A stretch of DNA of 64,000 bases, taken from positions 1 to 64,000 of the forward strand of contig NZ_PDKG01000011.1 of NCBI RefSeq assembly GCF_004116725.1, read 5' to 3'. The stretch comes from Arcobacter sp. CECT 8986. GTDB taxonomy: Bacteria > Campylobacterota > Campylobacteria > Campylobacterales > Arcobacteraceae. Made by a program: the position numbers and the translations under genes. This document shows, piece by piece, positions 316-41,359 of the stretch. The stretch's first letter is position 1, and the number at the start of each line of letters is the position of its first letter. The notes under the pieces were generated by a model. It ran no database searches. It was not told the origin of the DNA and saw only the letters and a program-made list of their open reading frames with translations.

Positions 316-1659
316 ATGGAAGAGTCTAAAACTCAATCTAAAACAAAAAGTCCCAAATGTAACGGGAATTCTAGTAGAAAAACTAGAACTCATATCCCAG
401 TTGAAGGGCATACGATAGAAAAACTAAGAGAATATCCTCTCGAAGATTTATTAAAAATCGCTAAAGAACTTAAAGTAGAAAATCCTCAAGAACTTAAAAG
501 ACAAGATTTAATGTTTTCAATTTTAAAAAATCAAATTGATGCAGGTGGATTTGTATTATTTACTGGTATTTTAGAGATAAAAGAGGGTGGATTTGGTTTT
601 TTAAGAGCAATTGATGGTAATTTTTCAGATACTTCTAGTGATTCTTATGTATCTGCTACTCAAATTAGAAAGTTTGCATTAAGAACAGGTGATATAGTTA
701 CTGGACAAGTAAGACCACCAAACAAAGAGAGTGAAAAATATTATGCTTTATTAAAAATTGAAGCAATAAACTACTTACCTGTAAATGAATCTAAAAACAG
801 ACCTCTATTTGATAACTTAACTCCTTTATATTCTACTGATAGATTTAAATTTGAATATAACTCAAATAAAATGACAGGAAGAATACTTGACTTATTTGCA
901 CCTATGGGTAAAGGTCAAAGGGGATTAATCGTTGCCCCTCCAAAAACTGGTAAAACAGAACTATTAAAAGAGTTAGCATACGGTATTACAAGAAATCATC
1001 CAGAAACACACCTAATGGTTCTTCTAATTGATGAAAGACCAGAAGAGGTAACTGATATGCAAAGATGTGTAAAAGGAGAAGTTTATTCTTCTACTTTTGA
1101 TTTACCTGCACATAATCATGTTAGAGTTGCTGAAATTGTTATTGAAAAAGCAAAAAGACTTGTAGAGATGAAAAAAGATGTTGTAATTTTACTTGATTCT
1201 ATTACAAGATTAGCAAGAGCATACAATACTGTAACACCAAGTTCTGGAAAAGTACTTTCTGGTGGGGTTGATGCAAATGCACTACATAAACCAAAAAGAT
1301 TCTTTGGTGCTGCTAGAAATATTGAAGAGGGTGGTTCTTTAACTATTATCTCAACTGCACTTATTGAAACTGGTTCAAAAATGGATGAAGTAATTTTTGA
1401 AGAGTTTAAAGGTACAGGTAACTCAGAAGTTGTATTAAGTAGAAATGCAGCAAATAGAAGAGTTTATCCAGCACTTGATATTATTAAATCAGGAACAAGA
1501 AAAGAAGAGTTACTTCTTACTCCAGAAGTTCTTCAAAAAACATGGATTTTAAGAAATGCAATTTCATCAATGGATGAAGTGGAAGCTTTAAAATTCTTAT
1601 ACTCAAAAATGCAAAAAACTAAAGATAACGAAGAATTCTTTAACTCAATGAATGAATAG
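316..1659 (+). CDS. rho: Transcription termination factor Rho
   Basis: This is the hexameric RNA-dependent ATPase that terminates transcription. An N-terminal Rho-N segment (about residues 30-75) precedes the cold-shock-like RNA-binding domain with GFGFLR at 92-97. The ATPase core has the P-loop APPKTGKTE (207-215), the [13 protein letters not shown] strand (236-248), the Walker B region [14 protein letters not shown] and the RNA-contacting loop [21 protein letters not shown] region near residue 315-335. At 447 residues it has a short lysine/serine-rich N-terminal extension relative to the 419-residue E. coli protein. It starts at an ATG and sits alone between hairpins at 172-219 and 1661-1686, so it is probably monocistronic. 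Confidence 0.98.
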
Positions 1660-1686: not shown

Positions 1687-1749
1687 TCATCTCAAATAAT
1701 CTATACATACTTGATATTAAAAAATTATATAATTGTGAGAGTTAAATAA

Positions 1750-1771
1750 AAAGAGGTAAAAATACCTCTTT
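1750..1771 (-). terminator. Terminator hairpin downstream of the membrane microprotein
   Basis: AAAGAGGTA (1750-1758) pairs perfectly with TACCTCTTT (1763-1771) around an AAAA loop. Read on the minus strand it is followed by a T-rich stretch, which suits termination of the microprotein gene that ends at 1789. It may also work for transcripts coming from rho. Confidence 0.7.
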
Positions 1772-1788
1772 TCTATGTAGATACAAAG

Positions 1789-1884
1789 TTACTTTTCTTT
1801 TACAAAAAGACCAACTACCCAGCTAAAACCTGCAAATGCTAGTAGCCCTGAAACTATAAAAATTAGTATCTCTGTGATAAACAT
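1789..1884 (-). CDS. Single-pass membrane microprotein, 31 residues
   Basis: This is a very short ATG-started frame of 31 codons ending with TAA. It has a strong purine-rich ribosome site (GGAAAGGGGAC) about 4 bases before the start. Residues 6-28 form one continuous hydrophobic helix with glycines at 13, 19 and 25 and a tryptophan at 22; the protein ends in the charged tail KEK. A terminator hairpin lies directly downstream and a 16-bp palindrome lies upstream, so it looks like a complete transcription unit. I do not recognise the family. Short single-helix proteins often act as accessory subunits of membrane complexes such as oxidases or efflux pumps; which partner applies here is unknown. 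It could still be non-coding, but the ribosome site, hydrophobicity pattern and flanking signals all agree. Confidence 0.65.
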   Translation of the reverse strand: MFITEILIFIVSGLLAFAGFSWVVGLFVKEK

Positions 1885-1909
1885 AATGTCCCCTTTCCTT
1901 ATTTTATAA

Positions 1910-1925
1910 ATGAATGCTCATTCAT
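1910..1925. promoter_or_regulatory. TetR-type operator palindrome
   Basis: The 16-bp perfect palindrome ATGAATGCTCATTCAT lies 26 bases upstream of the microprotein start codon. Paired TGAATG/CATTCA half-sites with a 2-bp centre are typical of operators bound by TetR/AcrR-family repressors. No TetR gene is in the window, so the regulator would act from elsewhere. Confidence 0.55.
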
Positions 1926-2091
1926 AAACATAATAATGAATTTTAGGGCATTTTAAATTAGAAGAAAATTAAATAATAAAAAAATTGCCAATTTATATGC
2001 ATAAACTACAAATAAAAAAGTATAAAAATTATGATTTTAAAAATTTGTTTTAATATGAATACTTTTAACAAAGTAGTTATCAATTTTTTGT

Positions 2092-2097
2092 TATAAT
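2092..2097 (+). promoter_or_regulatory. -10 box of the murI-dnaX unit
   Basis: A consensus TATAAT preceded by a T-rich stretch lies 25 bases before the murI start codon. There is no obvious -35 hexamer, as is usual for sigma-70 promoters in Campylobacterota. Confidence 0.6.
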
Positions 2098-2122
2098 CGG
2101 CAAAATTGAAATAAGGTAAAAG

Positions 2123-2914
2123 TTGAAAATAGGTGTATTTGATTCTGGCCTCGGTGGATTAACTGTTGTAAAAGCAATTAGTGAACATTTTAAGGGTGCA
2201 GATATTTTTTATATAGCTGATACAGCATATGCTCCATATGGAGATAAGACGCAAGAAGAGATAAGGAATAGGTGCATTCAAATCACTGAATTTTTGATTT
2301 ATTCTTTTAATATAGAAGCGTTAATTGTTGCTTGCAATACAGCAACTTCTGCTGCAATTAAATATTTAAGAGATGTATATAAAGATTTAATTGTAATAGG
2401 AACAGAACCAGGAATCAAACCAGCACTTAATTTAACAAAAACATCAAAAGTTGCAGTTTTGGCAACGAAAGCTACACTAAAAGGTGAAAAGTATCAACAG
2501 TTAGTTGAGAACTTATCTAAAGGTAAAGATATTACTTTATATGAACAAGCTTGCGTTGGTTTAGTTGAACAAATAGAAAATGGTGAAATTAATTCACCAA
2601 AAACTTATGAGATGTTAAAGCAGTGGCTTTTACCAATGAAAGAAAAAAATGTAGATACAATTGTTTTGGGTTGTACTCATTATCCTTTAGTTAGTGATGT
2701 AATAAGAGATATTATGGGGAATGAAATAAATTTAATCGAAACTGGAAATGCTATTGCAAATAGATTAATTTATTTGACTTCTTTAAAAGGGCATAATGAA
2801 GAGAATCCTTTAAATATATCAATTGGATATACAGGGAAAATTAATAGAACTATGATAAATAAAATTTTTAAAGATTATAACAATAAGATTGAAGTAAGGA
2901 ATTGTAAGATATGA
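2123..2914 (+). CDS. murI: Glutamate racemase MurI
   Basis: The enzyme converts L-glutamate to D-glutamate for peptidoglycan synthesis in the cytoplasm. The N-terminal GVFDSGLGG motif and the two catalytic cysteines are present: C71 in ACNTATSAA and C184 in GCTHYPL. At 263 residues the length is normal. The start is a TTG at 2123; a TAAGG ribosome site precedes it and the conserved MKIGVFDSG sequence begins there. It overlaps the start of dnaX by 4 bases (ATGA), so the two are probably translationally coupled. Confidence 0.96.
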   Translation: MKIGVFDSGLGGLTVVKAISEHFKGADIFYIADTAYAPYGDKTQEEIRNRCIQITEFLIYSFNIEALIVACNTATSAAIKYLRDVYKDLIVIGTEPGIKPALNLTKTSKVAVLATKATLKGEKYQQLVENLSKGKDITLYEQACVGLVEQIENGEINSPKTYEMLKQWLLPMKEKNVDTIVLGCTHYPLVSDVIRDIMGNEINLIETGNAIANRLIYLTSLKGHNEENPLNISIGYTGKINRTMINKIFKDYNNKIEVRNCKI

Positions 2915-41284: not shown

Positions 41285-41359
41285 TGGGCTAATAATAACA
41301 AAAAAATATTAATACTTAGCTATTGTGTGAGAAATTATGAATTATTATTCAGGAGAAAA

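Follow-up and report, generated by a model that had tools for sequence, protein, structure and literature searches.

Between rho (316-1659, plus strand) and murI (2123-2914, plus strand) of the window, as the whole 64,000-nucleotide stretch analysed here is called, lies a very short gene read on the minus strand. The initial annotation had proposed a complete small transcription unit at this point, and all its elements were found where it had put them, or adjoining:

1748-1773, minus strand: hairpin 3' of the stop codon, probable terminator (-13.5 kcal/mol, z -2.9)
1789-1884, minus strand: microprotein gene of 31 codons, single-helix hydrophobic product; the stop codon (1789-1791) is included in the coordinates
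about 1890-1900, minus strand: Shine-Dalgarno region, AAGGAAAGGGG, placed by sequence and geometry comparison
1910-1925, no strand assigned: predicted TetR-type operator, a 16-bp palindrome with the conserved core TGAAT-N4-ATTCA at 1911-1924
1930-1935, minus strand: candidate -10 hexamer TATTAT, weak in DNA this AT-rich
about 1940-1945, minus strand: alternative -10 candidate TAAAAT, likewise weak in AT-rich DNA

The open reading frame runs from an ATG at 1884 down to 1789, its product being MFITEILIFIVSGLLAFAGFSWVVGLFVKEK, and the strong ribosome site claimed for it is indeed present upstream of the ATG. The hairpin stood as a structure and is likely to act as a terminator, but its T tail is weak and a scan for consensus terminators did not list it.

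Comparison with relatives leaves hardly any doubt that the 31-codon frame is a genuine protein-coding gene. Of 150 relatives searched with the protein, 35 gave a match at E<=1, and within the own genus 6 of 6 genomes did so at E<1e-6. Start, length and stop are all retained, and pairwise dN/dS was 0.01-0.18 in 19 of 19 pairs, drawn within four close groups (G003 and G004 were read but left unpaired), which denotes purifying selection. Lack of conservation and frame-breaking changes, named at the outset as what would count against a gene, were looked for in the relatives and did not occur. AlphaFold2 gives a single helix over residues 2-30 (pLDDT 92.7), as had been predicted from the letters, and this hydrophobic helix probably spans the membrane.

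The window's microprotein matched no family in Pfam and NCBIfam, where 27 members of its own family gave scattered weak matches only (best E 0.0014), and among chains of solved structures it had no useful match, photosystem I at E about 0.5 being chance. When 398 genomes of the order were searched with a profile, convincing members turned up in Arcobacteraceae only. Matches in other families of the order (E 0.0005-0.05) fell mostly inside long frames or fragments and were dropped. Those in genus g11 were dropped as a different gene, judged on three contexts: in L175 the match is part of a 55-aa frame that precedes a gene resembling glycyl-tRNA synthetase, and its neighbours recur in L178 and L182. 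The matches in G061 and G065 were dropped along with these three. The microprotein thus appears to define an undescribed, lineage-specific family, confined within the searched genomes to Arcobacteraceae; a frame this short is easily missed by annotation.

One false family match (L181) was set aside before operators were counted, leaving 40 distinct members, which fall into 20 copies of class A and 20 others. Class A consists of 18 copies at the murI/UDG locus, where the UDG-like gene was seen in 16 and murI in 17, and of 2 in tandem elsewhere in G014. The others comprise 16 copies by hisI, a group that includes contig-end copies placed by the adjoining pyrophosphohydrolase gene, and 4 second copies by rho. 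In most relatives the UDG-like gene (52 bits against the DNA-deoxyinosine glycosylase model, below the cut-off of 80) lies between murI and the microprotein; it is missing from the window (1926-2122), so that in this species the microprotein adjoins murI.

The two classes differ in their upstream region. In each of the 20 class-A copies the core TGAAT-N4-ATTCA starts 28-44 nt upstream of the ATG, without a mismatch in 18 and with a single one in 2; it was found in none of the other 20, whose best matches carry 2 or more mismatches. At 1910-1925 the palindrome reads ATGAATG-CT-CATTCAT and is perfect over 16 bp, as the initial annotation had it. The core is expected 0.52 times in the window and was observed twice; a single palindrome on its own is within chance, and it is the comparison across copies that makes it significant. 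The second occurrence in the window, at 41338-41351, has the centre TATT, outside the R-N-N-Y form, and is probably due to chance.

In all 20 class-A copies the Shine-Dalgarno sequence lies 3-19 nt from the end of the palindrome, and a -10-like hexamer, weak evidence in such AT-rich DNA, ends 1-15 nt upstream of it. Operator between -10-like hexamer and ribosome site is the layout of a repressed TetR operon, and it recurs in 20 of 20 class-A copies. Since a transcript starting 3' of the palindrome would keep little of the ribosome site, if any, the predicted start most likely falls under the palindrome, which would then occupy a repressor position. On these comparisons we regard the palindrome, with high confidence, as a functional operator, and we infer that the microprotein promoter is quite probably subject to repression.

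A genome-wide search for ATGAATG-NN-CATTCAT with up to 1 mismatch located the motif in two places, before the microprotein and upstream of a [NiFe]-hydrogenase operon, while the reversed control had 0 genomic matches. The looser TGAAT-RNNY-ATTCA has 7 matches in the genome against 3 for the reversed pattern; 6 lie upstream of a gene and 1 inside a gene. The genes following the six sites encode the hydrogenase small subunit, aspartase, a C4-dicarboxylate transporter (679.6 bits, cut-off 396), a small basic protein, the microprotein, and a short protein resembling, by eye, the product of the gene immediately ahead of a ModE-like gene; names of regulon genes that carry no family call were likewise assigned by eye. 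The survey of site contexts in relatives was a selection of 29 places, in which R-N-N-Y centres were kept and AAAA/TTTT centres and others left out; these include hydrogenase operons and hyp/NicO-like, NrfD-like, Dcu, aspA and SQR-like genes, as well as a PhsA-like molybdopterin enzyme (397.9 bits, below the cut-off of 694). Among 42 relatives' and six own-genome sites, 3 fall inside frames of at least 60 aa (one of these frames, 63 aa long, is doubtful), whereas single half sites in the 29 relatives' loci do so in 340 of 449 cases (76%). Some hydrogenase promoters and that of aspA have the site 80-275 nt upstream of the first start codon, a distance at which it does not clearly occupy a repressor position. 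The gene content points to a regulon of hydrogen and anaerobic respiration.

Two small genes with the palindrome stood out. The 115-aa protein of L117 (1133-1480; G000:C2, minus strand, in the window's own genome) has it 27 nt before its start, with TATAAT just upstream, and resembles, by eye, the protein encoded just before the ModE-like gene in L116; its gene is a probable further member of the regulon. In two genera (L119 1627-1836 and L111 2094-2300) the palindrome precedes the gene for a small basic protein, 68-69 aa long, of which the L119 copy had no Pfam match.

Regulation from elsewhere, as initially suggested, fits the distribution of TetR genes, of which a search of the genome found four. 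One lies beside EmrAB-like genes, another (L128) has TTGAC palindromes of its own, and one further frame is short. The fourth belongs to the hydrogenase cluster (G000:C2:268413-269006; L127 1471-2067), on a contig other than the window's, immediately ahead of a cytosolic HupSL-like pair and HydABC-type operons. A guessed TetR-like pattern, TTGAC-N6-GTCAA, was the wrong motif and marks the L128 gene instead: two such palindromes stand just before it, at G000:C2:418862-418911 (L001, L002), and are probably its own operator.

The hydrogenase-cluster protein scores 53.9 bits against PF00440 (TetR_N; cut-off 24), and its model is all helical with an N-terminal HTH fold (pLDDT 88.3), the best PDB matches being all of the TetR family; sequence, Pfam and fold comparisons thus agree. 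Against 13 NCBIfam subfamily models (FadR, BetI, AcrR, RutR and others) it fell far below every cut-off. FadR, the fatty-acid degradation regulator of Bacillus subtilis and relatives, has an operator with TGAATGA/TCATTCA arms. The predicted fold resembles it (TM-scores 0.72-0.79 to 3whb/3whc chains), but the protein reaches 40.5 bits against a cut-off of 200 on the FadR model, and FadR is not known to have the CEGFxC pair.

This pair, C119 and C124, is invariant in 78 of 78 sequences, and the model places it in a loop predicted with low confidence. The expected recognition helix (residues 38-47) likewise shows no variation among the 78; for this comparison two of the 79 homologues, whose frames were read short, were left out. 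The invariant cysteines suggest redox, metal or Fe-S sensing. The 79 homologues (L183-L261) come nearly all from genomes named Campylobacterota, and a hydrogenase signature is present at 69 of the 79 loci. The 1.2 Mb around them contain 52 palindromes against 0 matches of the reversed control, and L254 and L255 each have one beginning 46 nt upstream of the TetR match. Across Campylobacterota, the hydrogenase-cluster TetR may be a repressor that responds to redox state, metal or hydrogen.

Sites and this TetR gene occur together. Among 91 Arcobacteraceae genomes the strict site is found in 43 of the 57 with the gene and in 5 of the 34 lacking it (totals of 100 versus 7 sites; reversed controls 10 versus 2). 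The association holds when only hydrogenase carriers are counted (43/56 versus 2/17), within genus g11 (5/7 versus 1/9) and beyond Arcobacteraceae (12/26 versus 3/33), although these counts are not phylogenetically independent and, owing to shared ancestry, p-values overstate their independence. All 19 class-A genomes have the TetR gene. Exceptions exist on both sides: 14 of the 57 TetR-positive Arcobacteraceae genomes lack a strict site, and two hydrogenase-bearing genomes with no TetR detected have sites, G063 (3 sites; 86% complete) and G065 (1 site). On this co-occurrence, the hydrogenase-cluster TetR is quite probably the protein that binds the palindrome at 1911-1924, and the TetR type first assigned to the operator is supported by this association.

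Another global anaerobic regulator, for example of CRP/FNR type, might bind the palindrome instead, the TetR gene merely travelling with the hydrogenase. An FNR-type binder was the first reading of the anaerobic regulon and was ranked second after the co-occurrence tests; the 5-4-5 half-site spacing also fits the CRP/FNR superfamily, and the genome has two CRP/FNR-type genes side by side. However, both their products have PETLSR in the helix, which we take to indicate an FNR-like TTGAT site, the palindromes follow TetR even among hydrogenase carriers and precede it closely in L254 and L255, and the site at the microprotein is in a repressor position. We consider a CRP/FNR-type binder unlikely, and the hydrogenase-cluster TetR stays the preferred one.

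A related arrangement has been described in Sulfurospirillum multivorans, where a TetR-like repressor upstream of hupSL might repress these genes (Kruse et al. 2017, PMC5357620). The two proteins share family, phylum and position directly before a cytosolic HupSL-type hydrogenase; orthology is deduced from position, and the Sulfurospirillum homologue L211 is 62% identical to the TetR considered here. In contrast to the present case, the available text of that account gives no operator, regulon or signal and mentions no microprotein; it does state that neither ArcAB nor Fnr was found in Epsilonproteobacteria, and suggests that a hydrogen sensor is missing in S. multivorans (PMC5357620). HydABC, HupSL, Sqr and CydAB are listed in Arcobacter in the accessible part of PMC4584990, and the review PMC6682613, in its accessible part, names no such regulator. 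No description of the palindrome, the regulon or the microprotein was found in the literature searched, whose coverage stops short of most subscription journals.

The locus would thus encode a small protein that crosses the inner membrane once and belongs to an Arcobacteraceae family not described before. Its promoter would lie just upstream of the palindrome, so placed that a repressor bound there would cover the transcription start. This repressor would most likely be the TetR of the [NiFe]-hydrogenase cluster, whose other targets may include hydrogenase, hyp/nickel-transport-like, aspartase, C4-dicarboxylate-transport and sulfur-redox genes. Once this TetR releases the DNA, the microprotein would be made together with genes for anaerobic and hydrogen electron transfer, and might join or tune a membrane respiratory complex, beside the operator-less paralogue encoded near hisI. 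Most TetR-bearing genera lack the microprotein, which is therefore not needed for hydrogenase function as such and looks like a lineage-specific addition, no core part of the hydrogenase. Its role as an accessory of a respiratory complex, suggested by size, helix, regulon and the paralogue pair, is a tentative proposal.

Which complex it might serve leads to the terminal oxidases, whose small subunits (CydX, CioY, CcoM) it could resemble. The helices of bd-type oxidases, CydX and CioY, are like it in being about 30-37 aa long, in forming one helix and in their respiratory setting, and the available part of a small-protein census of Campylobacter jejuni presents the 34-aa helix CioY as an oxidase subunit with conserved Trp, Pro and Tyr (PMC11955535). 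The microprotein differs in having no sequence match to them and no oxidase operon: by the neighbour motifs looked for and the flanking frames, none of the 40 members adjoins oxidase genes, the neighbours being rho, murI, UDG-like, metQ-like or hisI and the test for cydAB/cioAB adjacency negative. Moreover, the 27 aligned members have no proline and no invariant Trp or Tyr, so the residues reported for CioY (PMC11955535) are not conserved here, and no chain of a solved structure is matched. An oxidase accessory seems rather improbable. A type I toxin-antitoxin system, with the microprotein as its small hydrophobic toxin, would explain about 30 residues, one helix, a charged C-terminus and tight control, but is highly improbable for a gene under strong purifying selection at a conserved chromosomal position, whose paralogues have retained promoters of their own that lack the operator. 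The efflux role that the initial annotation suggested, here taken as an accessory of a multidrug pump under a local efflux TetR, could appeal to the operator type and to small helical pump partners such as AcrZ, but is scarcely credible, as not one of the 7 genomic sites accompanies an efflux gene, the region of the EmrAB-linked TetR has no such palindrome and the sites seen in relatives are respiratory.

Taken as a whole, the reading that we favour by a little is that of a single-helix protein, specific to this lineage, which serves as an accessory to a respiratory membrane complex and is repressed by the TetR of the hydrogenase cluster. That the CEGFxC TetR also provides Campylobacterota with the hydrogen or redox switch they have seemed to lack and, in Arcobacteraceae, swaps the microprotein for the operator-less paralogue within a respiratory membrane complex is, as a joint proposition, doubtful. 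With these results, a 31-codon frame can be assigned a likely regulator, a regulon and a clearly delimited class of relatives, in a physiological setting of hydrogen and anaerobic respiration; and a TetR repressor spread across Campylobacterota, whose targets had gone unreported in the sources available, acquires a probable operator sequence and regulon.
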